This document shows, one piece after another, positions 34,398 through 53,882 of a stretch of DNA of 64,000 nucleotides. Under the pieces are notes generated by a model. The model worked only from the letters and a program-made list of their open reading frames with translations, searched no databases and was not told where the DNA came from. Where the stretch lies: the NCBI RefSeq assembly GCF_001975725.1, contig NZ_CP019434.1, positions 1,943,486-2,007,485 of the forward strand, read 5' to 3'. The translations under genes were made by a program, and so were the position numbers. Positions within the stretch are counted from its first letter, which is position 1; every line of letters begins with the position of its first letter. This stretch comes from Acidihalobacter ferrooxydans (lineage in GTDB: Bacteria > Pseudomonadota > Gammaproteobacteria > DSM-5130 > Acidihalobacteraceae).

Positions 34398-36647
34398 ATG
34401 ACGCAATACCGCCAGGACCCCGCCCCCGTTCGTATCGACGCGCAGGAGAAGACCAACGGCACGGCGCACTACGTCGACGACATCCCCTGCACGGACCCGC
34501 TCTATGCCGCTACAGTGCGCACCCGGCTGCCGGGCGGGCGGCTGCGCGCGCTGCGCAGACGCGCCGATTTTGACTGGGACGGCTTTGTCGTCGTCACTGC
34601 GGACGACATTCCGGGCGAAAATGCGCTCAAGATGATCCAGCACGATCAGCCACTACTGGTCGCCGATCGTTTCCGCCACGCGGGCGAACCGGTCGCGCTG
34701 CTGGCTCACAGCGACCCCGCGCGGCTGGCCGCCGGCATCGCCGCTATCGAACTCGACGAAACCATTGACCAGCCGCCGCTGTTCGATCTCGACGAAGCGC
34801 TGCATTCCAGCACGCAGATCGTCCCCGGCAACGTCTTCACCGAATACCGCCTGCACAAAGGCGCCCTCGCCAACGGTGAGGCGGCGGCCAGCGTCCTCAT
34901 CGAAGGCGTTTTCCACACCCCCGCGCAGGAACAGTTGTACATCGAACCGCAAGGCATGATCGCGCAAGTGTTGCCGAATGGCGTGCTGCGCGTGATCGGC
35001 TCCATGCAATGTCCCTATTACGTGCTCGACGCGCTGGTCGTCGCCACCGGACTGTCGGCGGAACGCATCCAGGTCGTCCAGACCACCACCGGCGGTGGCT
35101 TTGGCGGCAAGGAAGACTACCCGTCGATGATCGCCTGCCACGCCGCGCTGCTCGCACTCAAGGCCGGTGGGCGCCCGGTCAAGCTGATCTATGAACGCGG
35201 CGAGGATCTGCGCGTCACGCCCAAGCGGCACCCCTCGCGCACCCGCATCCGCCTCGGCGCCGACACCGACGGCCGGCTCACCCTGATCGATATCGACTTC
35301 GCGCTCGACGGCGGCGCCTACCTCACGCTCAGCCCGGTGGTGCTCTCGCGCGGCGTGATTCACGCGCCCGGCCCGTACCGCTGCGACAACATTTCCGTGC
35401 ATGGCCGCGCGGTTGCCACCAACCATCCGCCGAATGGCGCCTTCCGCGGCTTCGGCGCGCCACAAAGCATTTTCGCCATGGAAGCGGCGATGGACCGGCT
35501 GGCCGATGCGCTCGGCCTCGACCCCGCCGAACTGCGCCGCCGCAATCTGCTCGAAACCGGCGACACCTTCCCCACCGGCAACCGTGTCGGCGACGATGCG
35601 GCCATGCAGGCAGTGCTGGTGCAGGCGTTGCGGGAGAGTGATTACAGCGCCCGCCGCGCTGCGCATGATGCCTGGAACCGCGCCGGTCACGGCACCCGCC
35701 GGGGGATCGGCCTGGCAACCTTCGCCCACGGCTCCGGCTTCACCGGCAACGGCGAGGTTAATCTGCGCTCGCGCGCCGGGCTGCGCGCACTGCCCGACGG
35801 TCGGGTTGAAATTCTCGCCTCGACCGCCGAAATCGGCCAGGGCATGGCCACCACCTTCGCCCAGATCGCCGCCGCCGCACTGAAACTGCCGCTCGCACAG
35901 GTGCGCATGGCGCCGACCGACACCCGCCAGGTGCCCAACTCTGGCCCGACGGTGGCCTCGCGCACCTGCATGGTGGTCGGGCGCATCGTGCAGGACGCCG
36001 CCGCCCAGCTCATTGCCCGGCTGCAACGCGATGCCGGCCTGCCCGCAGACTATGCACCCGGCGATTTCGCCCACGCCTGCCGCCGCCATCACGAGACGCA
36101 CGGCCCACTGGTTGAAATTGCCCAGTACAAAGCCCCGCCCGGCGATGCCTGGGACGAAGCGACCTTCACCGGCCCGGCCTACGCCGCCTATGCCTGGGCC
36201 GCCTACGTCGCCGACGTCGAAGTCGATCTCGCCACGCTGGAAACGCGCGTCACCGATTTCGTCGCGGTGCAGGAAATCGGCCGCGCCATCCACCCCGTAA
36301 TCGCGCAGGGTCAGATCGAGGGCGGCGTCGCGCAGGGCATCGGCTACGCGCTATACGAAGACATCGCGTGGGGCGAGGACGGCGTAATGGCCAACGACCG
36401 CCTGACCAATTACATCATCCCGACCAGCGCCGACCTGCCGCCGCTGCGCGTCTATTTCCAGGAAACCGCCACCGACGCACCCGGCCCGCAGAGTGCGAAA
36501 GGACTCGGCGAGCTGCCCATAGACGGCCCCGCGCCGGCCATCGCCAACGCTGTACGCCACGCGTTAGGCGTTGATGTGGATCGCCTGCCCCTGTTTCCCG
36601 AATACCTTCTGGACCTCTTCGACAACCACAAAAAGGATGTTGCATGA
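34398..36647 (+). CDS. Xanthine dehydrogenase-family molybdopterin-binding subunit
   Basis: 749 residues, the large Mo-cofactor subunit of a three-subunit hydroxylase. Motifs: GGGFGGKED near residue 235 (the Glu after the Lys corresponds to the active-site Glu that binds purine in xanthine dehydrogenases), GAFRGFGAPQ near 352 with the conserved Arg, and the catalytic base in KGLGELP near the C-terminus. A TTG five codons upstream is an alternative start; neither has a strong ribosome site. Followed by a NUP gene on an ATGA overlap, then the FeS and FAD subunits. Substrate (purine, pyrimidine or other N-heterocycle) cannot be decided. Confidence 0.9.
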   Translation: MTQYRQDPAPVRIDAQEKTNGTAHYVDDIPCTDPLYAATVRTRLPGGRLRALRRRADFDWDGFVVVTADDIPGENALKMIQHDQPLLVADRFRHAGEPVALLAHSDPARLAAGIAAIELDETIDQPPLFDLDEALHSSTQIVPGNVFTEYRLHKGALANGEAAASVLIEGVFHTPAQEQLYIEPQGMIAQVLPNGVLRVIGSMQCPYYVLDALVVATGLSAERIQVVQTTTGGGFGGKEDYPSMIACHAALLALKAGGRPVKLIYERGEDLRVTPKRHPSRTRIRLGADTDGRLTLIDIDFALDGGAYLTLSPVVLSRGVIHAPGPYRCDNISVHGRAVATNHPPNGAFRGFGAPQSIFAMEAAMDRLADALGLDPAELRRRNLLETGDTFPTGNRVGDDAAMQAVLVQALRESDYSARRAAHDAWNRAGHGTRRGIGLATFAHGSGFTGNGEVNLRSRAGLRALPDGRVEILASTAEIGQGMATTFAQIAAAALKLPLAQVRMAPTDTRQVPNSGPTVASRTCMVVGRIVQDAAAQLIARLQRDAGLPADYAPGDFAHACRRHHETHGPLVEIAQYKAPPGDAWDEATFTGPAYAAYAWAAYVADVEVDLATLETRVTDFVAVQEIGRAIHPVIAQGQIEGGVAQGIGYALYEDIAWGEDGVMANDRLTNYIIPTSADLPPLRVYFQETATDAPGPQSAKGLGELPIDGPAPAIANAVRHALGVDVDRLPLFPEYLLDLFDNHKKDVA

Positions 36648-37660
36648 AACGCCTGCTCCACACTGCCCTCTTCCTGTTGCTGGCCGCCCCCGTTGCCGTT
36701 TTCGCCGCCATCCCGGTCAAGGTCATGGTGCTCACCGCCTTCCCGCCCGAACTGGCACCCTGGGTCAAGCACATGCACGACCCCGCTCTGGTCAAGGTGG
36801 CGGGCGCCTACGCGCCTGTGTGGTGCGAAAAAGACGGTGTCTGCGTGACCGAAACCGGCGAGGCACAAGTCAACTCCGCCACCACAGTCGCCGCCCTGCT
36901 CGCCAGTCCGCAGCTCGATCTTAAACAGGCCCTGTTTCTGCGCGCCGGCATCGCCGGCGGTCCGCCGTGGGGCAACGACACGCTCGGCGGCGCCTATTGG
37001 GCCAATTGGGTCGTCTCGTGGGATCTCGGCCATCACCTCACCGCGCTGTCGCACGACGCGCCCGAGCCGCTGTTCCTACCGCTCGGCAACGACCATCCGC
37101 CGCTCGGCACCCACGCCTTCGAACTCAATCCCCGGCTGGTCAAACCCGCCTACCACGTGACCCGGCACACCAGGCTGGCTGACGACGCCTCGGCCATCGC
37201 CGACCGCAAGCTTTACCCGACGCAGACCGGGCGCACGCCCAACGTCGCCATCGGCGCCACCATCACCGGCGACGACTACTGGTCCGGCGTCGCGCTTTCG
37301 CGTGTTGCCCAGCGCATCGTCAGCCACTACAGCCACGGCGAGGCGCACTACGCCACCACCGCCATGGAAGACACCGGTGACGCCGGCGCGCTCGCTCGCC
37401 GCGGCCTGCTCTCGCACTACCTGAGCCTGCGCACCATCAGCGATTTCGACCAGCCCCCGGCCGGTCAGACCGCCGCCGCCATGCTGCTCTCGCATCAGTA
37501 CCCCGGCGGCCACATCGCCTTCGAAAACGCCTACCGCGTCGGCATGGCCTTTGTCGACTACGTACTTGCCCATCCCGCTCAAATGGCCAAAATCTACGCT
37601 GCCGACACCGTGCCCACCGTCCACTACCCACTCACCGCCGCCGCAGCCATGGGAAAATAA
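36644..37660 (+). CDS. NUP-family (purine nucleoside permease) protein, exported
   Basis: 338 residues with a clear signal peptide (MKRLLHTALFLLLAAPVAVFA), so the mature protein is periplasmic. The rest matches the NUP family, distantly related to nucleoside phosphorylases: PPELAPWVK near the start, FLRAGIAGGPPWGNDTLGG (substrate loop) and AMEDTGDAGAL. Despite its name the family has no membrane helices; binding or cleaving nucleosides outside the inner membrane is more likely than transport. Starts by ATGA overlap with the molybdenum subunit gene and ends 4 nt before the FeS subunit, so it is cotranscribed within the hydroxylase operon. Confidence 0.82.
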   Translation: MKRLLHTALFLLLAAPVAVFAAIPVKVMVLTAFPPELAPWVKHMHDPALVKVAGAYAPVWCEKDGVCVTETGEAQVNSATTVAALLASPQLDLKQALFLRAGIAGGPPWGNDTLGGAYWANWVVSWDLGHHLTALSHDAPEPLFLPLGNDHPPLGTHAFELNPRLVKPAYHVTRHTRLADDASAIADRKLYPTQTGRTPNVAIGATITGDDYWSGVALSRVAQRIVSHYSHGEAHYATTAMEDTGDAGALARRGLLSHYLSLRTISDFDQPPAGQTAAAMLLSHQYPGGHIAFENAYRVGMAFVDYVLAHPAQMAKIYAADTVPTVHYPLTAAAAMGK

Positions 37661-37664
37661 GGCC

Positions 37665-38117
37665 ATGACGATCCACATCACCGTCAACGGCACCACCCAC
37701 GCCACCGCGTCCGCGCCGGACACGCGCCTGCTCGACTACCTGCGCGAAGAACTGCATCTGACCGGTACCAAGGAAGGCTGCGGCGAGGGCGAATGCGGCG
37801 CCTGCGCCGTGCTGCTCGACGGCGTCCTGGTCAATAGTTGCCTCGTCCCGCTCGGCCAGCTCGACGGCGCCGCCGTCACCAGCATCGAAGGACTGCCGCC
37901 CGACTCGGCGCTCGCCCGCGCCTTCGGCCGCGCCGGCGGCACGCAATGCGGAATCTGCACCCCGGGCATGATGCTCGCCGCCACCGCCCTGCTCAATGAG
38001 CACCCCAGGCCGACGCTGGCGCAAATCCGCGCCGGACTCGACGGCAACCTCTGTCGCTGCACCGGCTACACGCGCATCTACGCCGCCGTCGCCGAAGCCG
38101 CCGAGGAACCGGATTGA
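37665..38117 (+). CDS. Xanthine dehydrogenase-family 2Fe-2S subunit
   Basis: 150 residues with two [2Fe-2S] clusters: the plant-ferredoxin type motif in KEGCGEGECGACAVLLDG (with a fourth Cys in VNSCLVPL) and the C-terminal CGICTPGMM...CRCTGY motif. It passes electrons from the Mo centre to FAD. The frame is open upstream inside the NUP gene; the start MTIHITVNG fits the family and lies four bases after the preceding stop. Confidence 0.94.
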   Translation: MTIHITVNGTTHATASAPDTRLLDYLREELHLTGTKEGCGEGECGACAVLLDGVLVNSCLVPLGQLDGAAVTSIEGLPPDSALARAFGRAGGTQCGICTPGMMLAATALLNEHPRPTLAQIRAGLDGNLCRCTGYTRIYAAVAEAAEEPD

Positions 38118-38965
38118 TGTGGCACAAACCCACCACGCTGGCCGACGCCCTGACACTGCTCGCCGAAGCGGCCAAGCGCCCGTGCGTGATCGCCGGCGGT
38201 ACCGACCTGATGGTCGAACGCCAGCTCGGCAAAACGGTCACGCCCGAAGCCTGGCTCGACGTGAGCGCCCTGAATGCGCTGCATGAAATCGACGCCGCCC
38301 CGGATACCTTGCGCATCGGCGCCGCCACCTCGCTGCGTACCGTCGCCCGGCACGCCGACGTGCAGGCCCGCTGGCCCATGCTTGCCGCCTCGGCTGCGCT
38401 GACCGGCGCTACCCCGATCCAGAACCGCGCCACGCTGGGCGGCAATCTCGTCAACGCCTCGCCCGCCGCCGACAACCCGCCCGTGCTGCTGGCCTACGGC
38501 GCCGAGATCGAACTCGCCAGTGTGCGCGGCATCCGCCTACTACCCCTCACCGAGTTCTATACCGGCTATCGCCAGACCGTGCTCGCCGCCGACGAACTGG
38601 TCATCGCCGTGCGCCTGCCGACGCCGCCAGAGAACGCCCGGCACTACTACCGCAAGGTCGGCACGCGTCAGGCCCAGGCCATCGCTAAGCTCAGCCTCGC
38701 CGCGCTCTACGAGTTGGACGCCGCCGGCAAAATCACCGCCATGCGCTGCGGCATGGCCAGCGTCGCCGCCACGCCTGCCGCGCTGCCGGGGCTTGCCGCG
38801 TGGCTGCGCGGCCAGACACCTGCCACCGTCGACCCCGCTGCGCTGCGCGCGCAGCTCGCCCTTGAAATCACGCCTATCGACGATATCCGGTCCACACGCG
38901 CGTATCGCCTGGAAGTTGCTGCGCGATTGATCGAAGATTCACTCACCGACCTTTCCGATCATTGA
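38117..38965 (+). CDS. Xanthine dehydrogenase-family FAD-binding subunit
   Basis: 282 residues (CoxM/CutM type). FAD contacts in AGGTDLMVERQLG near residue 30 and in TPIQNRATLGGNLVNASPAAD near residue 100. The C-terminal CO-dehydrogenase flavoprotein domain ends in TRAYRLEVAARLIEDSL. Starts on TGATG shared with the FeS subunit stop. With the genes at 34398 and 37665 it forms a complete molybdenum hydroxylase. Confidence 0.93.
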   Translation: MWHKPTTLADALTLLAEAAKRPCVIAGGTDLMVERQLGKTVTPEAWLDVSALNALHEIDAAPDTLRIGAATSLRTVARHADVQARWPMLAASAALTGATPIQNRATLGGNLVNASPAADNPPVLLAYGAEIELASVRGIRLLPLTEFYTGYRQTVLAADELVIAVRLPTPPENARHYYRKVGTRQAQAIAKLSLAALYELDAAGKITAMRCGMASVAATPAALPGLAAWLRGQTPATVDPAALRAQLALEITPIDDIRSTRAYRLEVAARLIEDSLTDLSDH

Positions 38966-38975
38966 GGAATTCACC

Positions 38976-39551
38976 ATGCAAACTGCCCTGCTTGAAAAAA
39001 CCTATGTCGACGTTCCGCTGGTGGACGCCACAGTCGAGAACATCGCGCCCTATGGTCTGATGATCGGTGACAGCGTGCACAAACCCGGTCTTTCCATTCC
39101 GTTCTACCGCGGCAGCGTCGAAGAAGGCGAAAACCTCGACTTCGTCTACAACGAACGGGCCGTCGTGCGCACCGCGCGCATCTCCCACCGCAGCCCCGAA
39201 ATCATCTGGCTGGAGCGTCATACGCGCATGACGCAACTTTTCGTCGGTCTCGGCAGCACGCCCTTCGTCATGGTGCTCGGCAAGCCGAACCTGGAGGACA
39301 AGCTGCCCGTGCTTGAAGACGTGGTGGCCTTCCGCATTCCGCCGGGCCACGGCATCATGATCCATCGCGGCACCTGGCACGATTTCCCGATGGCCTTCGA
39401 AGGCACACCCGTCACCGTGCTGACCATGAACTCCCAGGAAGTGGTCGAAGCCCTCGCCGCCGCCAGGGAACCGGCCGACATGGACACCGGTGACGTGTAC
39501 AAGATCGACATCGCCAAACACATGGGCAAAACTTTGCGGGTGCCGTTCTGA
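38976..39551 (+). CDS. Ureidoglycolate lyase (AllA)-like protein
   Basis: 191-residue cupin-fold protein. Ureidoglycolate lyases release urea and glyoxylate in the last step of allantoin breakdown. Matching features: WLERHTRMTQLFVGLGSTPF and HRGTWHDFPMAFEG, with conserved histidines. Longer at the N-terminus than E. coli AllA. GAGGA site precedes the start, 10 nt after the FAD subunit gene. No allantoinase or allantoicase is present in the window, so the true substrate may be a different ureido acid produced by this cluster. Confidence 0.75.
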   Translation: MQTALLEKTYVDVPLVDATVENIAPYGLMIGDSVHKPGLSIPFYRGSVEEGENLDFVYNERAVVRTARISHRSPEIIWLERHTRMTQLFVGLGSTPFVMVLGKPNLEDKLPVLEDVVAFRIPPGHGIMIHRGTWHDFPMAFEGTPVTVLTMNSQEVVEALAAAREPADMDTGDVYKIDIAKHMGKTLRVPF

Positions 39552-40035
39552 GGTTTTTGGATCGAGCATGCACATCGACGTAACCATGAGGCCTGATCAC
39601 GCATCGGGGTTGTCTGGCCTCGGCGCGCGCTCCCGCTGGAAGAGAAGCTGGGAAAGGGAGAGCTTTGCCCGGTTTTTGCCGGTTGCACCGAGTGACGAGT
39701 ACGCTTTGACCCCATTGCTGTCGACTGGCACGGCAATGCGCCAAAGATCGCCTGTCCCAGCGGGCAACCGTACGCCCGCTCGCCGGAACGGGGCTCGCGG
39801 CCACGCGCTTCCTGCGTGGAGCCGCTTGGCCGGCATCCTGTCGGCCATCCCCGCTCAGTCTCAGCCGCACGCGCGCACGGCAGACGATCAAGGGAAACCG
39901 AACGTCAAAGGCCCAACCTTTCATGCCGGTTGGACCGACGTAAAAAGCCTGACATCAGGCGCTTCAAGCCTGGCTCGACGCCACGTCAGGCGTCTGCAGG
40001 TATTTTCCATTTCATAATAATCGAGGGCAAAAACA
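39552..40035. other. Intergenic region without a recognisable gene
   Basis: 484 bp after the AllA-like gene. Short frames on the plus strand have no ribosome site and no family resemblance. A loose inverted repeat (CCTGACATCAGGCG...CGCCACGTCAGGCG region near 39950-39995) is the only structure I see. Confidence 0.4.
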
Positions 40036-40290
40036 ATGAGAAACATCTTTTTCTTCGACACCATGCTGACCCCGAAGATCATCACGGTGGTGTACTGGTT
40101 GGTTCTGCTGGGGGTGCTGTTCTTCGGCCTGAGCATGATGTTCGGGGGATACGGGGGCTTTACCGCAGGAAAATTTTTCATGGGTCTGGTCTATATCATC
40201 GGTGGCGCCATCGGCGTTCGCATCTATGCGGAGTTGCTGATCGTGCTGTTTAAAATGAACGAAGCCCTGCAGGAAATGCGTCACAAGTGA
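40036..40290 (+). CDS. DUF4282 small membrane protein
   Basis: 84 residues: a short N-terminal FFFDTMLTPKII, then two membrane helices (about 15-35 and 45-70) and a charged C-terminus. This is the DUF4282 pattern (domain of unknown function, two helices). GAGGG precedes the start at a good distance. Not obviously linked to the catabolic cluster. Confidence 0.8.
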   Translation: MRNIFFFDTMLTPKIITVVYWLVLLGVLFFGLSMMFGGYGGFTAGKFFMGLVYIIGGAIGVRIYAELLIVLFKMNEALQEMRHK

Positions 40291-40493
40291 AATGATCGCC
40301 CATCCGCATCAACGAGGAGAAAAGAGGGTAAACCCTGCGGTATGTGCCGTCTGGGCCGACACAGTCGGCTCGACAGCGGCGGCCGCGGTTCCCTGGTTTC
40401 ATCGTGCACCTGGCAAGGTTTGGCTCCAGCCGCGCCTGAAATGCTCGATTCAAGCGCATCGAACCGGTAGCGGTCACGGTTTTTGTCCTGCCC

Positions 40494-40590
40494 GAAGTCT
40501 GTCGGAGCGGGAAGCTCATGGCGAAGCAAGCGGGAAACGGCCCCATCATCTCATTGCCGCAGCCGATGGTTTCCCGGCTCGACAGACTTC
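40494..40590. repeat. Inverted-repeat element, possible decayed MITE
   Basis: Ends GAAGTCTGTCG (40494-40504) and CGACAGACTTC (40580-40590) are perfect inverted repeats of 11 bp, extended imperfectly by GAGCGGGAA/TTTCCCGGCT. The string AGTCTGTCGGA also occurs in the end of the element at 45929, so the two may be related. Confidence 0.5.
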
Positions 40591-40765
40591 CAGCCTGGTT
40601 AATGCCTTGCCTAAACCCGGCATCTCGGGTGCGCTTCTTTCGCCCCTTTCTTTGCGTGCTCAGCGAAAGGATCTCGCATGCCGCGCCCTGCCTTCGGCAG
40701 ATGCCGGACCGATCATATCGCGTGAAACCAAGTCATCCTGCCTAGATAAAACACATAAAAACAAT

Positions 40766-40801
40766 TTGTTGAATAATTTTTATAACGTTAAACATCACTA
40801 T
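40766..40801 (+). promoter_or_regulatory. AT-rich promoter/operator region of the ring-opening operon
   Basis: TTGTTG followed after 17 nt by TAAACA is a weak sigma70-like pair. It overlaps a near-palindrome centred on AACGTT (TTTATAACGTTAAAC), which could bind a regulator. No regulator gene is found in the cluster. Confidence 0.35.
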
Positions 40802-40841
40802 ACTCAGCCCAACCTGCTCAATACCTGCGAGGCCTAGACCC

Positions 40842-41939
40842 ATGCGCGTCATCGCCCACCGCTTCCCGACCACCGGCCCGAGCGACGTATCCGGCCTTGC
40901 CACCCAGCTCGACGCCGGCGAACTGCGCGCGCAAGACATCCTCGCTATTATCGGCAAAACCGAGGGCAACGGCGGCCTCAACGACTTCACCCGCGAGCTG
41001 GCGACGCGCGCGCTGGGCGACCTGCTCGCGCCCCAGCTCGGCTGCGCGCCCGCCGAAATCGAAGATCGCGTCGTGCTGTCCTTCTCCGGCGGCACGGAAG
41101 GCGTCACCAGCCCGCATCTGCTCGTGCTCGCACGCACCGGCGAACCACTCACCACGCCGCGAGCCGAAAAGCGCCTCGCCGTCGCCACCGGCTACACGCG
41201 TGCCTTCGAGCCATGGGAGGTTGGCTATCGGCCGATGATTGAGGAAACCGCGCGCGTGGTACGCGAACTGATGCGGGAACTGAAAATCGACGATCCCGCC
41301 GACGTGCATCTGGCGCAGATCAAGGGCGCGATCCCGGATGCGGACGAAGAACAACGCGCCGCCGCCGAAGCCGAGGGACGCCCGCTGCGCAGCGACATGG
41401 TCGGCTCGCGCGCCGCCTCCGCGCTGGGCGTGGCGCTGGCGCTGGACGAAGTGGCGGAAGACAGCATCGGCGACCGCGTCGTGTGCCGCGACTGGTCGCT
41501 GTACTCCACCCGCGCCAGCGTGTCGGCCAAACCGGGCCTGCTGCGCTCGGAAATCACCCTGCTCGCCAACTCCGCCTGGTGGGACGGCGACCTCGTCATC
41601 GAGCACGGAGTGATGCGCGACATTATCGATCTCGACGCCATCCGCGCAGTGCTTGCCCGCCTCGGCCTGGAAGCCCCCGGCCAGCTCGCGCCCGAGCAGA
41701 CCGCGCGGCTGGTGGGCCTCTTCGCCAAATCCGACGCCGACCCGCGCAACACCATCCGCGGCCGCCGCCACACCATGTGGACCGACGCAGACATTTCCGA
41801 CATGCGCTACTCGCGCTGCGTGGTGGCCGCCCTGCTAGCCGGCGTGACCGGCGAGACGGCGGTATATGTCTCCACCCGGGCCGAACATCAGGGGCCGCTC
41901 GGCGGTGGCCCGGTGGCCATCATCGCACGCGCCGAATGA
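40842..41939 (+). CDS. Ring-opening amidohydrolase (cyanuric acid hydrolase/barbiturase family)
   Basis: 365 residues. The family hydrolyses cyclic ureides: AtzD/TrzD open cyanuric acid, Bar opens barbiturate. Three pseudo-symmetric units each supply a Ser-Lys pair. Visible: Lys39 in AIIGKTEGNGG; Ser82 in SFSGGTEGVTS; Lys in HLAQIKGA; the middle Ser region with GSRAASALGVALAL; and the C-terminal HQGPLGGGP. Sequence alone does not separate cyanuric acid hydrolase from barbiturase. It overlaps xdhC by ATGA and leads the run xdhC-atzG-atzE-like, so its product is probably passed to the AtzE-like amidase. Confidence 0.88.
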   Translation: MRVIAHRFPTTGPSDVSGLATQLDAGELRAQDILAIIGKTEGNGGLNDFTRELATRALGDLLAPQLGCAPAEIEDRVVLSFSGGTEGVTSPHLLVLARTGEPLTTPRAEKRLAVATGYTRAFEPWEVGYRPMIEETARVVRELMRELKIDDPADVHLAQIKGAIPDADEEQRAAAEAEGRPLRSDMVGSRAASALGVALALDEVAEDSIGDRVVCRDWSLYSTRASVSAKPGLLRSEITLLANSAWWDGDLVIEHGVMRDIIDLDAIRAVLARLGLEAPGQLAPEQTARLVGLFAKSDADPRNTIRGRRHTMWTDADISDMRYSRCVVAALLAGVTGETAVYVSTRAEHQGPLGGGPVAIIARAE

Positions 41940-42910
41940 ACAATCCCGCCCGCCAGTTTGTCGCGCAGCCCGTCGCCGAAGCACTGATCGTGCGCGTGCG
42001 CGGGTCGGCGCCGGTTGCGGTCGGCAACAGCATGCGCCTGCTCCGCGACGGGCGCTGGGACGGCACCGTCGGTGGCGGACACCTGGAACACGCCTTGCGC
42101 GATTCACTGCGAACCCTCGCCGGCGACACCGCCGCCCCGCGGCGCTTCGACTTCACCCTCGGTGCCGGCAGTGACCAGTGTTGCGGCGGGCGCGTCGAGG
42201 CTTGCGCCCTGCCGATCCCGCCCCTGTTCGGCGCGCTGTATGCGCCCGGTGCGGCACGCGTCTACACCGTCAACGGCACCGCGCTCAGTCTCGCCGGCGG
42301 CACCACCGCCGACGGTCGCTGGCGCGGCGCGCCCGCCGCCCGCGCCGCGCTCGCCGGCGTAAACGAAGCAGGCTATAGCCCCGACGGGCACTGGTTCGTG
42401 CTGCCCGCCACGCCGCGCACGCCGCTATGGCTGTTCGGCGCCGGTCATGTCGCCCGCGCGCTGGCCCGCTGCGCTGCCGAGCTGGATTTCGCCATCGACG
42501 TCTTCGACGCGCGCGACGAATGGGCCGATCCGACCGCCTTCCCTGACGATATCCGGCTGCACCGCGAGATCGAACCCGCCGCGCTGGCGCAACCGCCGCG
42601 TACTGCCGTGATCCTCGTGATGACCCACAGCCATACCCTGGACTACGCCCTGCTCGAACACTTCCTGCCGCAGCCGCTCGCCTATCTCGGCGTGATCGGC
42701 AGCCGTTCCAAGGCCACGCGTTTTTACCATGCGCTGCAACGCGACGGTCATTCGCTACCACCGCAACTGCACATGCCCATCGGCCTGCCGGGTCTGGGCA
42801 AACGCCCGGCCGAAATCGCCATCAGCGTGCTCGCCGAACTCCTTGCCCTGCGCCAGCGCGACGCCGGGCAAACCGCACCCACACACAGACCCACGCAAGG
42901 ACTCTCATGA
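41936..42910 (+). CDS. xdhC: XdhC-type molybdenum cofactor maturation protein
   Basis: 324 residues. XdhC binds molybdenum cofactor, promotes its sulfuration and inserts it into xanthine dehydrogenase-type enzymes. N-terminal domain with the Cys pair in GSDQCCGGRVEA and TVGGGHLEHALRD; C-terminal Rossmann domain starting PLWLFGAGHVARALARC and containing VILVMTHSHTLDY and GVIGSRSKATRF. Starts by ATGA overlap with the amidohydrolase gene and ends in the same way with the next gene. Serves the hydrolase encoded 4 kb upstream. Confidence 0.92.
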   Translation: MNNPARQFVAQPVAEALIVRVRGSAPVAVGNSMRLLRDGRWDGTVGGGHLEHALRDSLRTLAGDTAAPRRFDFTLGAGSDQCCGGRVEACALPIPPLFGALYAPGAARVYTVNGTALSLAGGTTADGRWRGAPAARAALAGVNEAGYSPDGHWFVLPATPRTPLWLFGAGHVARALARCAAELDFAIDVFDARDEWADPTAFPDDIRLHREIEPAALAQPPRTAVILVMTHSHTLDYALLEHFLPQPLAYLGVIGSRSKATRFYHALQRDGHSLPPQLHMPIGLPGLGKRPAEIAISVLAELLALRQRDAGQTAPTHRPTQGLS

Positions 42911-43089
42911 CACCCGAAGAACTGGACGCCTACATCGACCTCACCGCCGCGCAGCAGAAACTGACCATCGAGCCGGCCTGGCGCGAATCCGTGGTCACGT
43001 TCTATCAACTCGCCGCGCGCATGGCCGAGGTACTCGAAGGCCACCCGCTCCCGCCGGAAGAAGAACCGGCCCCGGTGTTCACGGCATGA
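42907..43089 (+). CDS. AtzG-like small protein (DUF4089)
   Basis: 60 residues, GatC-like in build. AtzG binds and stabilises the amidase AtzE (1-carboxybiuret hydrolase), as GatC does for GatA. The helical block AYIDLTAAQQKLTIEPAWRE and VTFYQLAARMAEVLEGHPLP are typical of DUF4089. It overlaps both xdhC (ATGA) and the amidase gene (ATGA), so the two partners are translated together. Confidence 0.85.
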   Translation: MTPEELDAYIDLTAAQQKLTIEPAWRESVVTFYQLAARMAEVLEGHPLPPEEEPAPVFTA

Positions 43090-44477
43090 GTGCGCTGCCC
43101 AAAACCGGCGTTGAACTGGCCGCGGCGATCCGCGCCGGCGAGTTGAGCGCCACCGAAGCCACGCAAGCCACACTGACACGCATCGAGCAGCACAACCCCG
43201 GGCTCGGCGCCTTCACTGACATCACCGCCGAACGGGCGCTCCGTGAAGCCGCCGAGGTCGACCGCCGACGCGCGCGTGGCAGCGAACCCGGTCCGCTGGC
43301 CGGCGTGCCCTACGCGGTCAAGAACCTGTACGACATCGAAGGCATGACCACCCTCGCCGGCTCCAAAATCAACCGCGACGACCCACCCGCACGGGAAGAC
43401 GCCACCCTCATCAGCCGCCTCAAACAGGCCGGCGCGATTCTCTGCGGCGGCCTCAACATGGGTGAATACGCCTACGATTTCACCGGTGAAAACGCCCACG
43501 TCGGCCCCTCGCGCAACCCGCACAACCCTGCCCACATGACCGGTGGTTCCAGCGGCGGCAGCGGCGCTGCGGTGGGCGCGAATCTGGTGCCCCTTGCGCT
43601 GGGGTCGGACACCAACGGCTCGATCCGCGTGCCCGCCTCGCTGTGCGGCATTTTCGGCCTCAAACCCACCTTCGGACGCCTGTCGCGCGCCGGCAGTTTT
43701 GCCTTCTGTCCGAGCCTCGATCACCTCGGCCCGCTGGCGCGCAGCGTCGCCGATCTGGCCGCAAGCTACGATGCAATGCAAGGCCCGGACATACGCGATC
43801 CGGTCTGTCAGAAGCGCTTGCCGGAGACGACCGCCGAACAGCTTGGACAAGGCGCCGACGGCCTGCGCATCGCCGTCGCCGGCGGCTACTTCCGCCAGCA
43901 GGGCACCCCCCAGGCATTCGCCGCGGTCGAGCGCGTCGCCCGCACGCTGGGCGTCGACACCGAAGCCGAATTGCCCGAAGCCGGCCGCGCCCGCGCTGCC
44001 GCCTATCTCATCACCAACGCCGAAAGCAGCAATCTGCATCTCGACCGTCTGCGCGCCCGCGCCGCAGACTACGACCCGGACGTGCGTGACCGCATGCTGG
44101 CCGGCGCACTGCTTCCTGCTGACTGGTATCTGCAAGCGCAACGTTTCCGTCGCTGGTATCAACATGAAGTACTGCGCGTGTTCCGCCGCCACGACGTTCT
44201 CATCGCCCCGGCCACGCCGATGACCGCGCCGCCCATCGGCCAGCGCACGATGACGCTGGAGGGGCAGGAAATGCTGGTGCGCCCGCATCTTGGCCTGTAT
44301 ACCCAGCCGATTTCCTTCATCGGTCTGCCGGTGGTGGTGGTGCCGGTACAGACGCCGGGCGAACTGCCCATCGGCGTGCAGATCATCGCCGCACCATGGC
44401 GCGAGGAACACGCCCTTCGTGTCGCCGCGCAACTCGAAGCCGAAGGCTTCACCGCGCCCGAAGCCGCACTGGACTGA
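43086..44477 (+). CDS. AtzE-like amidase (amidase-signature family)
   Basis: 463-residue amidase-signature hydrolase. Catalytic triad: Lys in [12 protein letters not shown] (near residue 79), cis-Ser and nucleophile Ser in [16 protein letters not shown] (near 152-176 region). Annotated AtzE proteins hydrolyse 1-carboxybiuret formed after cyanuric acid ring opening; here the partner could equally be a ureido acid such as ureidomalonate. The start overlaps the AtzG-like gene. Frame is open far upstream but only this start gives the domain. High GC and strong codon bias like its neighbours. Confidence 0.88.
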
Positions 44478-44484
44478 CTCGACC

Positions 44485-44682
44485 ATGCGGGCGTCTGTCT
44501 ATCAGGTGGACAGAGTCCCCCGTCGCCAAGCCAACATGCCCCTATCGGAACGGCCCGGACGAGGCGCTTTCGCCTACGCATCCGACACCCGCGACGCCGT
44601 GCTCGCAACACTTGCCAGCGCTGCCGCACAGCCTGCGCAACGCGCGGGCGCGGCCATGCGCAAACAATCCAATAACGACTGA
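44485..44682 (+). CDS. Possible small protein (65 aa), uncertain
   Basis: An open frame of 65 residues between the amidase and the AtzH-like gene ([20 protein letters not shown] at its start; Ala/Arg-rich). Starts 7 nt after the amidase stop and ends 16 nt before the next start, so its spacing is operon-like, but there is no clear ribosome site and no family I recognise. It may be a chance frame in GC-rich DNA. Confidence 0.3.
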
Positions 44683-44698
44683 AACACGAGACCTGCCC

Positions 44699-45082
44699 AT
44701 GCTCGAAATCAACCGCCCCGAAGTCCTTGCCGAAGTCACCGACGCCTTCGAGCGTTACGAAACGGCTTTGATCAACAACGATGTCGAAGTGCTCGATGAG
44801 CTGTTCTGGAACAGCAAGCACACCCTGCGCTATGGCGTGAGCGAGAACCTCTACGGCTATGCCGCCATCGCCGCCTTCCGTGCCTCGCGCCCATCCCAGG
44901 GATTGCAACGCGAACTGGTCAACACCACCCTCACCACCTACGGTCACGACTTCGCCACCGCCAACACCGAATTCCTGCGCAACGGCGGCGCGGTACACGG
45001 CCGCCAGAGCCAGACCTGGATGCGCACGTCCGAGGGCTGGCGCGTGGTCGCCGCGCACGTCAGCCTGATGCCCAAGGCGTGA
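44699..45082 (+). CDS. AtzH-like protein (DUF3225, NTF2/SnoaL-like fold)
   Basis: 127 residues. Members of this family accompany AtzE/AtzG in many genomes. Features: [21 protein letters not shown] (N-terminal helices of the NTF2-like cone), [21 protein letters not shown] and the terminal [20 protein letters not shown] strand pair. AtzH of the triazine plasmid is an amidohydrolase of another fold in some reports, so only the genetic association is firm; catalytic or chaperone role unknown. Last base pair overlaps the GTG start of the next gene. Confidence 0.75.
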
Positions 45083-45678
45083 TCGGCGCGGTCATCCTTG
45101 CCGGCGGTCAATCGCGCCGCTCAGGCCGCATCCACAAAGCCTGCCGCCTCCTGCCCGGCGAACGCCGCAGCTGGCTAGACCGCCAGATCGATGCTCTGCG
45201 CGCGGCCGGCATCATACGCATCGTGCTGGTGCTCGGTTATCGCCCGCGGCGCGTGCTCACCTGCCTGCACCGCAACGTGTCAGTCGTGAGCAATCCAAAC
45301 CCCGAGCGCGGTGCCTTCGCCGCTCTGCAAAGCGGCCTGGCAAGCGGTCGCGGCGACCGTCTCATCGTGCCGCTCGATACCCCCCTGCCCAACGCCATGC
45401 GACTGCGCCAACTGATCAAAGCCCTACACGGGGTCGACGCGGCGCTGCCGACCGATCGCCGCGGGCGCGGTAGTCATCCTGTGGCACTGACCGACGGGTA
45501 TGCGCAAGGTCTACGCGCGATTGCGCCAACCGGCCCGGACGCACGGCTCGACCGCCAACTGCATGCGCTGAGCCCGCAACACTGCCGACGATTGCGCCTG
45601 TATGCGTCATCCCAACGACACAACCTCAACACACCCCGAGCCTGGCGCGCCTACCTGAACCGTCGTCGCGGCTTGTAA
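45079..45678 (+). CDS. MocA/MobA-like nucleotidyltransferase
   Basis: 199 residues, starting at GTG overlapping the previous stop (GTGA). N-terminal [20 protein letters not shown] corresponds to the nucleotide-binding loop of the NTP-transferase family, with [17 protein letters not shown] carrying the metal aspartate. Near a molybdenum hydroxylase and xdhC, a MocA-type role (cytidylylation of molybdenum cofactor) is the natural guess. The GxxxRxGxxK loop has an extra spacing and the C-terminus is Arg-rich, so it is a divergent member. Confidence 0.7.
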
Positions 45679-45749
45679 AAGCGTACCGGGATAGATTCGC
45701 TCCAGACCGTAGATACCAGCGCTGCTCAGATTGCCACCCGGCGAACCCG

Positions 45750-45895
45750 TTTAACAGGCTGTTGTTGTCTACTCATGCGGCACGCCAGAGCGTTAAAATC
45801 GGGCTCTTGTGCTCATTTACGCGCTGTAAACTGCGCTTTTTCGCCCGACAATCCTTCTCTCGCACTCGCCTGAGCAACAACAACAGCCTGTTAAA
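45750..45895 (-). repeat. MITE-like element, family 2, with perfect ends
   Basis: 146 bp, bounded by perfect inverted repeats TTTAACAGGCTGTTGTTG. The interior (on the minus strand) contains GGATTGTCGGGCGAAAA, TTTACAGCGCGTAAATG and GGCGTGCCGCATGAG, shared with the copies at 13601 and 60208. No reading frame. No obvious target duplication. Confidence 0.88.
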
Positions 45896-45928
45896 GCACG
45901 CCATTTCACTCGCGTAATGTTAGCCAGC

Positions 45929-46099
45929 CTAGGAGCCTGTCGGATTTGGAAAGAATCGGCTGCGGCGGTGGGATAATGGGCCCATTTCCACGCTCTTTTT
46001 CGTCGAATAGAACCACTATTGTCCTCAAAAGAGAGCGAGAAACTGGTCACCATTCCCCACTCGCCTCGCTTCGATCCTCCAAGTCCGACAGACTCCTAG
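45929..46099 (+). repeat. MITE-like element, family 3, with IS1182-like ends
   Basis: 171 bp. Ends are inverted repeats GAGCCTGTCGGATTTGGA and (inverted) GAGTCTGTCGGACTTGGA, each preceded by CTAG. The IS1182-like end at 24353 also follows CTAG and reads CAGCTTGTCGGACTTGG. The interior has no open frame of note. Probably a non-autonomous derivative mobilised by such a transposase. Confidence 0.75.
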
Positions 46100-46302
46100 C
46101 CAGAAGCCTTTACCGCAAACACGTCCGGCGCCGCGAAACGGCAAGCAGGGCCGTGTCTACCGTCCGTTTTCCCGAGGGGTATAAACAAGTGCAAGAACCG
46201 TCATTTATGCACGAAATCAGGGCCGACAGCGCCCTCAAGCCTGCGATAACTCCTGTTATCCATATGTTTTATATACATAATTAAAACTGGCTGGTATTTT
46301 GC

Positions 46303-46316
46303 TTGACGTGTATCAA
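46303..46316 (+). promoter_or_regulatory. FNR/Anr-like palindrome before the permease gene
   Basis: TTGACGTGTATCAA fits TTGAT-N4-ATCAA with one mismatch. It is only 34 nt before the start codon, too close for classical class II activation, so it may be coincidental or act as a repressor site. TTGACG could also be read as a -35 element. Confidence 0.3.
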
Positions 46317-46349
46317 GTGAGTGTTTCAATGCCCAAGTGAGACTTTGAA

Positions 46350-47672
46350 ATGAGTTATCTAACCCGTGAAGCAGCCGTGATCGATCACGAACTCGGCGCA
46401 GAATATGAGCACACCCCAGTGCCGCATGACAAACGCCGTGGTACTGCATCTGTTGCACTGATCTGGGCCGGCTTTCCGATGGGCCTCTCCACCTTTGTCT
46501 CAGGTTCACTGCTGGCGGAACTGGTCGGCGTCAAGGCTGCGCTGGCGGCCACCCTGCTCGGTAACCTGGCACTGCTGCTCTATGTCGGTCTGCTCGGCAG
46601 ACTCGCCGCGCAAACCGGCGAAAGTTTTGCTCTGCAGGCAAAACGCGTGTTTGGCAGCAAGGGCTATCGTCTCGCATCAACCTTTCTCTCGACTATCGTC
46701 ATTGGCTGGTTCGCGGTCAATGCCGGCATCGGCGCCGAACTACTCAAGAGCAACTACGGACTATCCTACGCTTGGGTCGTCATTCTCATGTCCATCGCCT
46801 ACGCCTTCATTGCCTTCCTCGGCGTGCGTGCGCTGCATTGGATAAGCCTTTTTTCCGTCAGCCTTTTTCTTATGGTTGCTGGCGTTACACTGGTCGATAT
46901 TTCTGCACAGGGATCGCTGTCTGCCGCGCTCGACTACGCTGGCGCGCACCCGTTGCATCACATGGCCTTCGGCACCGCCGTCGCCATTGTCATCGCCAAA
47001 TTCCTCGATAGTGGCACGCAAACCGCCGATTTCAACCGATGGGCGCCGAACACACGGGGCTCGTGGCTGGCCACCGCCGCGGCCTTCCCGCTCGGTCTCG
47101 GGTTGCCGATGGCGCTTGGCATACTGGTCATGGGTGCGCTGCAAGGCGGCGGCGCTTTCGCGCACGGCAACGTAGTCGGTTTCCTGCTCGCCAATCATGA
47201 GACTGCCATCAGCGTGCTGGTCTTTACCTTCATTGTGATCAACACCGGCTCCGTGGCTTCGCACTGTGCCTACAACGCCGCCACCGGCTGGTCCGGAGCC
47301 ACCGGGCTACCGATGCGCCTGGTCGCTATCGTTATTGGCACCTTTGCCCTCGGCCTTACGCTCTCGGGCTTCTGGCATCTCTACATTCCCTGGCTGATCT
47401 TCCTCGGCATCCTAGTGCCGCCGCTCGGCACCACGATCCTCGCCGAGGCCGTGATCACGCATCAAAAGGGCGAGTCTCCACTGCCGGCCTGGCGCTGGAG
47501 CGCTTTTGCCGCCTGGGCGGTCGGCGCGCTGGCCGGCTACGCGAACTATCGCTTCATGCCTGCCTTCCCGACTCCGATCGCCGCCTTTCTCGCCACCCTG
47601 CTCTGTTACTTCCTGTTGCGCGGCTTCGCTCCCGCACCCAGACCGCTATCAACAACCATTGGGGAGGAGTGA
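46350..47672 (+). CDS. NCS1-family cytosine/purine permease (CodB-like)
   Basis: 440 residues with about 12 membrane helices, of the nucleobase-cation-symport-1 family (CodB branch). Conserved: IWAGFPMGLSTFVSGSLL in helix 1, AGIGAELL and WISLFSVSLFLMVAGV, and FNRWAPNTRGSWLATAAAF after helix 6. Expected to import a nucleobase or related heterocycle with a cation. Its location after the hydroxylase/ring-opening genes, same strand, suggests it brings in the pathway substrate, though two MITE-like elements and 670 bp separate it from the MocA-like gene. Confidence 0.88.
   Translation: MSYLTREAAVIDHELGAEYEHTPVPHDKRRGTASVALIWAGFPMGLSTFVSGSLLAELVGVKAALAATLLGNLALLLYVGLLGRLAAQTGESFALQAKRVFGSKGYRLASTFLSTIVIGWFAVNAGIGAELLKSNYGLSYAWVVILMSIAYAFIAFLGVRALHWISLFSVSLFLMVAGVTLVDISAQGSLSAALDYAGAHPLHHMAFGTAVAIVIAKFLDSGTQTADFNRWAPNTRGSWLATAAAFPLGLGLPMALGILVMGALQGGGAFAHGNVVGFLLANHETAISVLVFTFIVINTGSVASHCAYNAATGWSGATGLPMRLVAIVIGTFALGLTLSGFWHLYIPWLIFLGILVPPLGTTILAEAVITHQKGESPLPAWRWSAFAAWAVGALAGYANYRFMPAFPTPIAAFLATLLCYFLLRGFAPAPRPLSTTIGEE

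Positions 47673-48548: not shown

Positions 48549-53882
<5,334 letters not shown>

Follow-up and report, generated by a model that had tools for sequence, protein, structure and literature searches.

What compound is taken apart by a gene cluster that combines a molybdenum (Mo) hydroxylase with a ring-opening amidohydrolase and homologues of AtzG, AtzE and AtzH? The question is raised by a 64,000-nucleotide stretch of the genome of Acidihalobacter ferrooxydans (the window), a bacterium that is probably an acidophilic oxidiser of sulphur or iron, where a sequence-only reading had outlined import, ring hydroxylation, hydrolytic ring opening and amide hydrolysis at 34398-47672 and had remarked that neither the uracil nor the cyanurate route accounts for everything. 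All the genes it named are found there on the + strand, the gene content supports the outline, and the remark stands as well. Our results suggest that the cluster probably serves to obtain nitrogen from purine nucleosides and bases, uracil and cyanurate being less likely substrates. What is established is the gene content and linkage, the clade and signature of the ring-opening enzyme, and that searches for uricase, OHCU decarboxylase and HIU hydrolase homologues detected none; from these we infer every reaction.

Gene content and recurrence of the cluster

The cluster opens with the large subunit of a xanthine dehydrogenase (XDH)-type Mo hydroxylase (34398..36647), which has MoCoBD_1/2 domains and xanthine dehydrogenase/oxidase as its best PDB matches. 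It is followed by a NUP protein with an apparent signal peptide (36644..37660; PF06516, 5e-63), the [2Fe-2S] subunit (37665..38117; Fer2 and Fer2_2; PucE model 157 bits, below the cut-off of 254) and the FAD subunit (38117..38965, with an alternative TTG start at 38114; FAD_binding_5, 3.7e-42). Next come an AllA-like cupin-fold protein of the ureidoglycolate lyase family (38976..39551; PF04115, 4.6e-11), a ring-opening amidohydrolase of the AtzD/barbiturase family, which has the Toblerone fold (40842..41939; PF09663, 2.3e-129, 432 bits), and an XdhC-type maturation factor (41936..42910; TIGR02964, 165.5 bits with the longer frame scanned, cut-off 161.6). An AtzG/HpxX-like small subunit (42907..43089; PF13318, 54.1 bits, cut-off 24) lies immediately upstream of its catalytic partner, an AtzE/HpxY-family amidohydrolase (43086..44477; NF006631, 723.7 bits, cut-off 461), and AtzH/HpxZ (44699..45082) exceeds its equivalog cut-off (NF033625, 204.6 bits against 135). 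The last two genes encode a MocA/MobA-like nucleotidyltransferase (45079..45678; PF12804, 3.8e-23; MocA model 53.5 bits, below the cut-off of 186), which probably serves Mo cofactor maturation, and a CodB-like NCS1 nucleobase permease (46350..47672; PF02133, 1.6e-14; cytosine permease model NF008241 166.8 bits, below the cut-off of 326).

Between the AllA-like gene and atzD lies a 1.29 kb stretch with dispersed repeats (39552..40841, no strand), which has 43 matches in its own genome, itself included (40 of 114 candidates scored). Reading-frame calls put no more than 22 bp between the two genes in the 24 other loci of the same type that have both. The stretch encodes a small DUF4282 membrane protein (40036..40290, +; PF14110, 1.6e-16) with no blastp match in the other AtzD-family loci compared, and it is probably outside the pathway.

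Near-identical gene order is found in two further genomes of the same family (G002 and G003) and in Acidithiobacillus, where NUP precedes the large subunit and the permease lies further upstream; in Acidiferrobacter-like loci the order is kept in part. Because of this recurrence, the cluster is far beyond chance.

The ring-opening hydrolase

Five residues separate the groups of this family (Peat et al. 2013, PMC3758960): R195, T321, R325, G345 and G346 in cyanuric acid hydrolases (CAHs), N195, H321, K325, V345 and S/A346 in barbiturases, and R195, M/T321, R325, T345 and R346 in Group IV, which that paper left uncharacterised, with a role maybe peculiar to acidophiles. Its passages on Group IV give neither gene context nor activity. 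The window protein has R195, M321, R325, T345 and R346, the Group IV signature, which is shared by 25 other loci, and it keeps all the Ser-Lys positions of the Toblerone family (K42, K162, K296, S85, S233, S344). The Group IV members described in PMC3758960 come from Sulfobacillus and Acidithiobacillus, and the latter genus is also represented among the relatives here; unlike in that account, our loci add purine genes, an AllA-like partner and further fixed K and A positions. The 26 Group IV sequences span Acidithiobacillus, the window's family, Acidiferrobacter and metagenome-assembled genomes titled Melainabacteria, Cyanobacteria, Chloroflexi and Blastocatellia.

In our tree these 26 sequences form a single clade (100/100), separate from AtzD, TrzD and the Moorella and Azorhizobium CAHs. 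The phylogeny against known members that the sequence-only reading had proposed thus places the enzyme apart from the characterised CAHs, and the earlier label of an AtzD/barbiturase-type enzyme is right as to family, the protein itself being better classed as neither AtzD nor Bar. Lysine occupies the position two residues after S233 in 26/26 Group IV sequences and glycine in all 63 other family members, and Thr-Arg at 345/346 is likewise found in 26/26 versus 0/63; these positions belong to active-site loops. Because Lys stands where Gly is otherwise fixed, and Arg where other members have Gly, Ser, Asp or Ala, just after two active-site serines, we infer from sequence that the Group IV substrate would be a cyclic ureide with a six-membered ring and a more anionic character than cyanurate or barbiturate.

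Two known activities of the family have to be weighed at this point. In the first reading, Group IV would be a cyanuric acid hydrolase and atzD-G-E-H the pathway of Pseudomonas sp. ADP, lying beside an unrelated xanthine dehydrogenase. In favour of this reading, the window protein scores 397.9 bits with the NCBIfam cyanuric acid amidohydrolase model (NF052395, cut-off 360), its closest solved structures are CAHs, AtzG, AtzE and AtzH are in the cluster, and BiuH-like proteins and AtzF occur in relatives. Cyanurate has been said not to be a known natural product (PMC4051656); also in favour, it can form by oxidation of uric acid (PMC7948467), and a 2025 paper reports it from Paramecium secretions (PMC12342508). 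The order D, G, E, H is shared with atzDGEHF of pADP-1, but here the XDH, NUP, AllA-like, XdhC and MocA-like genes precede or interrupt it, D belongs to another clade and the genome has no atzF above the cut-off. The separate clade and the fixed Lys and Thr-Arg also speak against this reading; M321, T345 and R346 depart from the CAH signature, and the protein is not classed as a standard cyanurate hydrolase. Moreover, neither AllA nor XDH is needed for cyanurate degradation, and 1.36 Mb away the same genome holds another AtzD-family gene, adjoining an ABC transporter and a LysR gene, that does carry the CAH signature. We consider cyanurate mineralisation unlikely.

The oxidative pyrimidine route, in which the Mo hydroxylase would make barbiturate from uracil or thymine, the Toblerone enzyme would be a barbiturase and AtzG/E/H would equal ureidomalonase, is the most improbable of the alternatives. 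Barbiturase does belong to the family, a Mo hydroxylase is also near some loci with the barbiturase signature, and the cluster has a cytosine-type permease. However, N195, H321, K325, V345 and S346 are all missing from the window protein, which is therefore not classed as a barbiturase, and relatives have genes for purine deaminases and a protein of nucleosidase fold close by.

Purine-type neighbours in relatives

The neighbourhoods of the 26 Group IV loci were compared with those of 59 other AtzD-family loci. An AllA-like gene is no more than 1.5 kb away in 25/26 Group IV loci versus 0/59 others, NUP is near atzD in 14/26 versus 0/59, and BiuH-like genes are present in 5 of the 26 and none of the 59. 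Guanine deaminase-like genes (13/26, two of them weak at 72-77 bits) and gamma-glutamyltransferase (GGT; 11/26) each occur near one of the 59 other loci. As a point against the purine reading, 22 of these 59 have an AtzE-family gene and 20 a Mo hydroxylase nearby. In Acidithiobacillus, typing by family in one locus (L018; the other loci were called via homologous genes) gave a run of TonB, NCS1 permease, guanine deaminase-like, adenosine deaminase, NUP, three XDH subunits, AllA-like, Group IV AtzD, XdhC, AtzG, AtzE, AtzH, MocA-like and GGT, with the XDH maturation genes interleaved among those of the amidohydrolases. The L018 GGT matches both chains of 5HFT, presumably the HpxW structure, at 214 and 196 bits, the best single chain being 2i3o (234). 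Much of this run is listed in RefSeq on the A. caldus megaplasmid; NUP, deaminase, permease and MocA-like genes are not listed in the 29 kb shown, where the gene table is incomplete.

Both G002 and G003 have a gene pair that diverges from the cluster and codes first for adenosine deaminase and second for the allophanate hydrolase AtzF (776 and 759 bits; cut-off 511). Bmp-type ABC genes lie between the pair and XDH in G002, and in a further genome (G004) the pair is kept beside an atzD remnant. Two Bacillota loci (L025, L028) have 5'-deoxyadenosine deaminase-family genes above the cut-off. Against the purine reading, the window's cluster itself lacks guanine deaminase, adenosine deaminase and GGT. 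Elsewhere in its genome, a guanine deaminase-like gene adjoins an 8-oxoguanine deaminase (655.7 bits, cut-off 532) and a GGT gene is present; AtzF was not found above the cut-off. The guanine deaminase matches in the window's, Acidithiobacillus, same-family and Acidiferrobacter-like genomes score about 291-326 bits against a curated cut-off of 375.

Of the canonical uricase-allantoin pathway, three enzymes were looked for: uricase (PF01014; 0/20 genomes), OHCU decarboxylase (PF09349; 0/21) and HIU hydrolase (PF00576; 0/21) were not found in searches that included positive controls. The earlier remark that allantoin-pathway genes other than allA are absent holds genome-wide for these three.

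Could two independent nitrogen modules, one oxidising purines to urate and one hydrolysing triazines or ureides, share one nitrogen-regulated operon? Both would yield ammonia, and in 8/26 Group IV loci the AllA-AtzD pair has no Mo hydroxylase within 9 kb, several of these loci ending at contig ends. In six of the eight an 860-886 aa frame comes next, typed in two cases as an alpha/beta hydrolase-TPP fusion, which suggests that these loci belong to another pathway; one further locus (L029) has neither an AllA-like gene nor a Mo hydroxylase. On the other hand, the genes for XdhC and the MocA-like protein, the expected helpers of the Mo enzyme, sit among atzD and atzG-E-H in an order that is conserved, and neither uricase nor OHCU decarboxylase was found to complete purine oxidation, so that we regard two modules as highly unlikely.

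A candidate route from purines to ammonia

We return to purine catabolism, which is indicated because the neighbours include guanine deaminase-like, adenosine deaminase, nucleosidase-fold NUP and HpxW-like proteins, and because the Mo hydroxylase has XDH pocket residues and adenosine deaminase lies beside allophanate hydrolase in relatives. Uptake would use the NCS1 permease and the NUP protein in the window, whereas relatives would rely on TonB-type and Bmp-type ABC systems. NUP has no PDB match by sequence; its model is weak (pLDDT 66) and resembles MTA/SAH nucleosidase folds (best E 7e-11, query TM-score about 0.5), and with a signal peptide judged by eye it is likely an exported purine nucleosidase or phosphorylase, not a permease. 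Deaminases, whether their genes are part of the cluster or lie outside it, would then supply hypoxanthine, xanthine or urate, products that the Mo hydroxylase may oxidise to urate. Its three subunits come with XdhC, and its large subunit has the residues aligned with bovine XDH E802, R880, F914, F1009, T1010 and E1261, which we take to be the purine-pocket positions and which are kept in 14/14 homologues aligned. The best XDH equivalog score is 428.5 bits against 783.65; because no subunit comes anywhere near an NCBIfam equivalog cut-off, the substrate could be a different heterocycle.

The linked AllA-like protein and Group IV hydrolase would take the purine-derived ring onward, replacing uricase, HIU hydrolase and OHCU decarboxylase and presumably standing in for the allantoin enzymes too. 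The structures closest to the model of the AllA-like protein (pLDDT 86.9) are those of AllA (2bdr, 1xsr, 1xsq, 1yqc), and E80, H82, Q87, W134 and H135 are invariant in 15 sequences; the protein scores 36.5 bits against the AllA equivalog cut-off of 260, and it would split a ureido group off a carbinol carbon. None of the enzymes encoded in the cluster is an obvious candidate for converting urate to a monocyclic six-membered ureide. On chemical grounds, candidate rings are 5-ureidobarbiturate or an anionic derivative of urate, for instance oxonate. We hold at slightly under even chances a route in which XDH, together with the AllA-like protein and the Group IV hydrolase, turns urate into a cyclic ureide (a triazine such as oxonate and a 5-substituted barbiturate are examples) that is then opened to carboxybiuret/biuret or oxalurate.

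In a special case of the purine-scavenging reading, whose likelihood is not added to that of the whole, the AllA-like protein would open the urate imidazole to 5-ureidobarbiturate and Group IV would open the barbiturate ring. This hydrolytic route fits the reaction class of both proteins, barbiturase and AtzD differ at 345/346, among other positions (PMC3758960), and Lys and Arg could hold a larger anionic 5-substituent. It is nevertheless quite unlikely: a limited literature search for pseudouric acid and related terms gave no precedent, and it offers no route to biuret or oxalurate, so that the BiuH-like, AtzF and HpxW-like partners are poorly explained.

For the later steps of the purine route, an acylurea or carboxybiuret-type product would be deaminated by AtzG/AtzE and trimmed by AtzH or, in relatives, handled by a BiuH-like hydrolase; the end products would be allophanate (via AtzF, or urea and urease) and/or oxamate (via an HpxW-like enzyme). 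The AtzE-family protein is 55.6% identical to AtzE of pADP-1 and 52.9% to the Klebsiella HpxY-type protein, and the window's AtzH/HpxZ protein is 67.7% identical to AtzH and 57.9% to HpxZ. The Klebsiella hpxXYZ/hpxW oxalurate module is matched by Y and Z homologues, an X/AtzG-like gene and, in Acidithiobacillus clusters, an HpxW-like GGT. Klebsiella makes oxalurate from urate by the allantoin branch, whose first three enzymes, unlike there, were not found here. BiuH-like, AtzF and Bmp-type ABC genes in relatives resemble those of the triuret/biuret pathway TrtA-BiuH-AtzF (PMC7948467) and the nitrifier biuH clusters (PMC12625717); the nitrifier genomes are reported in the latter without upstream purine degradation genes, whereas here XDH and adenosine deaminase belong to the locus. 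The reductive urate pathway of anaerobes (XdhD-YgfK-SsnA, PMC12507026) and the clostridial xanthinase pathway also break down purines without uricase, but by different enzymes, and the AtzD family is not mentioned in the abstract or Discussion of PMC12507026.

It is close to an even call whether these genes encode a further purine degradation pathway, one that dispenses with both uricase and the reductive enzymes; the Group IV link adds a candidate for such a uricase-free route. This link makes the natural role of the family, and that of Group IV, testable with one enzyme and a few compounds. If real, such a pathway would give one branch of cyanurate hydrolases a natural role and biuret-type metabolites a biological source, and the link suggests that lithotrophs of acid mine settings may draw nitrogen from nucleic-acid debris. 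The Group IV cluster may thus show a natural function of the puzzling AtzD/barbiturase family.

Organization of the cluster in Acidihalobacter ferrooxydans

The genome of A. ferrooxydans is a single contig of 3,448,835 bases, of which the window covers bases 1943486-2007485 with a GC content of 61.5%. Twelve named pathway genes, with a small DUF4282 gene as the thirteenth, lie on the + strand at 34398-47672. In order, the named genes encode the molybdenum hydroxylase large subunit, the NUP (PF06516) protein, the [2Fe-2S] and FAD subunits, the AllA-like protein, the AtzD-family enzyme, XdhC, AtzG, AtzE, AtzH/HpxZ, a MocA-like protein and an NCS1 permease. The sequence-only reading had listed a three-subunit hydroxylase with its maturation factors, a ring-opening enzyme, AtzG-, AtzE-, AtzH- and AllA-like proteins, a NUP protein and a permease, and every gene on that list is accounted for here. 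By their coordinates, frames overlap by 4 bases at six junctions (large subunit-NUP, FeS-FAD, AtzD-XdhC, XdhC-AtzG, AtzG-AtzE and AtzH-MocA), the FeS-FAD overlap holding only with a TTG start. Such overlaps would be predicted by translational coupling, and the six junctions fit it. A scan for promoters and terminators gave counts near the shuffled level (4 against a mean of 2.6, and 15 against a mean of 11.2) and was given no weight.

Dispersed repeats are found at 39552-40841 and 45920-45994. A short repeat (query bases ~930-1060) has at least 37 matches elsewhere in the genome at 70-86% identity, with 40 of 114 candidates scored, and one of these matches lies in the gap before the permease gene. 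The longer element has two other good copies in the genome, at 82-84% identity. The repeats separate the AllA-like gene from atzD, a gap that is at most 22 bp in other Group IV loci. Further downstream, at 52299-53501, two direct repeats of 300 nt, 903 bases apart and 81% identical, lie within a large reading frame with a ZipA_C domain. Upstream of the cluster is a gene of the AurF (p-aminobenzoate N-oxygenase) family (32924-33787). We considered this oxygenase as a missing urate oxidase but did not adopt it, as the genes typed in L018, an Acidithiobacillus locus, do not include it.

Signature and phylogeny of the ring-opening enzyme

The AtzD/barbiturase family has been split into six groups by residues 195, 321, 325, 345 and 346, as outlined in extracts of PMC3758960. 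Groups I-III (R, T, R, G, G) contain the cyanurate hydrolases and Group VI (N, H, K, V, S/A) is barbiturase, while Group IV (R, M/T, R, T, R) was in 2013 uncharacterised and known from Acidithiobacillus and Sulfobacillus, according to the same extracts. In our alignment the window protein (40842-41939) has R, M, R, T, R at these positions. We placed 89 sequences in a maximum-likelihood tree, midpoint-rooted and with long-branch warnings for L003, L051, L037, L032 and others; in it the 26 Group IV sequences form a single clade (100/100), apart from the four characterised cyanurate hydrolases and from the sequences with the barbiturase signature; clade membership was taken from row names in the tree and residues from alignments. 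The family assignment made from the sequence alone is retained, but the Group IV signature and the separate clade show that the enzyme is not a standard cyanuric acid hydrolase or barbiturase. Its best-ranked named matches, among the best 80 of 240 confirmed loci, are from Acidithiobacillus.

Three further alignment positions set Group IV apart. The residue two after Ser233 is Lys in all 26 Group IV sequences versus Gly in all 63 others, the residue two after Lys162 is Ala in 26/26 versus Pro in 63/63, and Thr-Arg directly follows Ser344 in 26/26 versus 0/63. Group IV has therefore gained a positive side chain in each of two active-site loops. This suggests that its substrate may be more anionic, or differently substituted.

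At 397.9 bits the window protein still clears the 360-bit cut-off of the NCBIfam cyanuric acid hydrolase model, so such proteins may be mislabelled by automatic annotation. Despite this score in a curated model, a plain cyanurate hydrolase was rejected as the default reading on clade and signature. We give some weight to a cyanurate pathway, with which AtzG/E/H, the BiuH-like (biuret hydrolase type) proteins of relatives and the allophanate hydrolase AtzF are all compatible; against it, the Group IV clade and signature differ from those of the known hydrolases. A second AtzD-family gene of this genome (bases 623752-624780; L003:9738-10811) does have the cyanuric acid hydrolase signature. It adjoins SsuABC-type ABC transporter, LysR and glyoxalase-like genes and has a very long branch in the tree.

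An oxidative uracil route through barbiturase was rejected here, since the barbiturase signature is missing and the neighbouring genes in relatives are of purine type. Candidates for that route are found in L065 and L078, where AtzD homologues with N195, H321, K325 and V345, but D346, directly follow molybdenum hydroxylase FeS and FAD genes, with an AtzH-like gene nearby. Homologues of a Bradyrhizobium type (Q321, G-G at 345/346) adjoin a less similar molybdenum hydroxylase in L055, L061, L062, L073, L079, L082, L085 and L086, possibly representing another uncharacterised pathway that pairs these two enzymes.

Gene neighbourhoods of Group IV loci

Neighbours were counted around 85 AtzD-family loci, 26 of Group IV and 59 others, within 1.5 kb for AllA-like genes and 9 kb for other genes. 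The named loci, 80 in all, are the top-ranked among 240 confirmed, so that distant members are under-sampled; several loci (for example L014, L020, L022, L026, L027 and L032) are cut by contig ends. L001, L002, L004-L007 and L011 were excluded as duplicates or a remnant, and the paralogue L003 is included in the 59. An AllA-like gene is present at 25/26 Group IV loci versus 0/59 others, and NUP at 14/26 versus 0/59. The same holds for adenosine deaminase (8/26 versus 0/59) and a BiuH-like gene (5/26 versus 0/59), while a guanine deaminase-like gene is found at 13/26 (two at only 72-77 bits) versus 1/59 (46 bits), gamma-glutamyltransferase (GGT) at 11/26 versus 1/59 and AtzH at 11/26 versus 3/59. 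Fisher values for these counts are overstated, because many Acidithiobacillus loci are non-independent. The AtzE family (13/26 versus 22/59) and a molybdenum hydroxylase large subunit (17/26, 15 of them above 1200 bits, versus 20/59 at 171-285 bits) are also common near other loci, so this linkage alone is not peculiar to Group IV.

In Acidithiobacillus the order, with families typed in L018 and like genes in the other loci, is TonB, NCS1 permease, guanine deaminase-like, adenosine deaminase, NUP, xanthine dehydrogenase-type (XDH) large, FeS and FAD subunits, AllA-like, AtzD, XdhC, AtzG, AtzE, AtzH, MocA-like, GGT and LysR. NUP and the deaminases are missing nearby in L019. On the A. caldus SM-1 megaplasmid the RefSeq annotation runs from XDH to GGT and LysR, with no NUP, deaminases, permease or MocA annotated in the 29 kb examined. 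The Acidiferrobacter-like loci L031, L032 and L034 have divergent BiuH-type, guanine deaminase-like, GGT and NUP genes. AtzG-E-H were not found in the two longer of these, L031 and L034, and L032 is cut off after atzD.

The BiuH-type hydrolase of L034 scores 404 bits against a cut-off of 370. Two relatives of the window genome, G002 and G003, have between XdhC and AtzG a gene for a BiuH-like protein 49% identical to it, which in G002 falls under the cut-off (233.9 bits). Both also have a divergent gene pair, adenosine deaminase then AtzF, which in G002 is separated from XDH by Bmp-type ABC transporter genes. In a third genome, G004, a 68-residue Group IV atzD remnant (L011:9830-10033) adjoins the pair, and this lineage has apparently lost the cluster.

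Two of three Bacillota loci, L025 and L028, combine a less similar molybdenum hydroxylase with an AllA-like gene, AtzD, an amidase and a member of the 5'-deoxyadenosine deaminase family, which scores 529.8 and 532.3 bits, respectively, against a cut-off of 522. Also typed were an FAH-type gene (L025) and an NCS1 permease (L028). Eight Group IV loci, several cut by contig ends, have the AllA-AtzD pair with no molybdenum hydroxylase within 9 kb, and here the pair may serve another substrate. In six of the eight a frame of 860-886 aa follows the pair. The two such frames typed (L020:6243-8903 and L023:11123-13711), lying just after the pair, encode a fusion of an alpha/beta hydrolase and a TPP enzyme, that of L020 being of PRK08327 type and preceded by a ketopantoate-reductase-like gene.

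A probable route for purine nitrogen

Since the neighbouring deaminases are purine-acting, purines are favoured over pyrimidines as the substrate class. Residues of the hydroxylase that match E802, R880, F914, F1009, T1010 and E1261 of bovine xanthine dehydrogenase are kept in 14/14 aligned cluster homologues, a count without L009 and the weakly similar L025 and L028 (profile alignments left out frames more than 1.3 times the median). The subunits score far under the curated equivalog cut-offs, and the enzyme might act on a different heterocycle. The predicted NUP structure (pLDDT 66) has a nucleosidase fold, with MTA/SAH nucleosidases as best matches at query TM-scores of ~0.5. Elsewhere in the A. 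ferrooxydans genome an 8-oxoguanine deaminase gene (655.7 bits, cut-off 532) adjoins one for a guanine deaminase-like protein (290.8 bits, cut-off 375), and there is a GGT that shares 54.6% identity with the GGT in the Acidithiobacillus cluster. Against the purine reading, several of the purine genes of A. ferrooxydans lie away from the cluster, and fewer are seen in the A. caldus copy.

A classical urate-allantoin route with genes elsewhere was rejected on searches for uricase, OHCU decarboxylase and HIU hydrolase. With positive controls run, uricase was found in 0/20 genomes searched, and OHCU decarboxylase and HIU hydrolase each in 0/21, most genomes having no completeness figure and the 21 including G004 with its atzD remnant.

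In the purine route that we propose, nucleosides would be split outside the cytoplasm and the bases imported, deaminases would strip amino groups and XDH would then yield urate. The AllA-like protein shares the fold of AllA, with 2bdr, 1xsr, 1xsq and 1yqc as its best matches, and conserves E, H, Q, W and H; its reaction may therefore be the release, or else the transfer, of a ureido group from a carbinol carbon. A six-membered cyclic ureide would be opened by the Group IV enzyme, for which oxonate and 5-ureidobarbiturate are candidates on chemical grounds. AtzG/E/H or the BiuH-like enzyme could then dismantle an acylurea or carboxybiuret; in extracts of PMC6219798 and PMC7948467 such steps belong to cyanurate and triuret pathways. 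Chemical oxidation of uric acid gives triuret and cyanuric acid (PMC7948467, in extract), which makes a biuret-type intermediate from urate chemically reasonable. The AtzE-family protein is 55.6% identical to AtzE versus 52.9% to HpxY, values not decisive between the two. The end point would be allophanate, through AtzF, or urea with urease. AtzF is over its cut-off in 10/21 genomes, A. ferrooxydans not among them, and urease is present in A. ferrooxydans. A two-carbon amide would be processed by the HpxW-like amidohydrolase, for which the comparison is partial, the Klebsiella HpxW frame being just 411 aa in the record used.

The individual parts are already known, and databases annotate each singly. 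Among the best-ranked matches in the open-licence PMC literature we found no report of the combined cluster's function, and the best-ranked papers there on a purine role of AtzD or ring-opening amidohydrolases, or on purine degradation in Acidithiobacillus, likewise contained nothing on it. The purine degradation pathways discussed in extracts of PMC12507026 are the oxidative, xanthinase and reductive ones. If the purine reading is true, the cluster would be a further variant beside these three.
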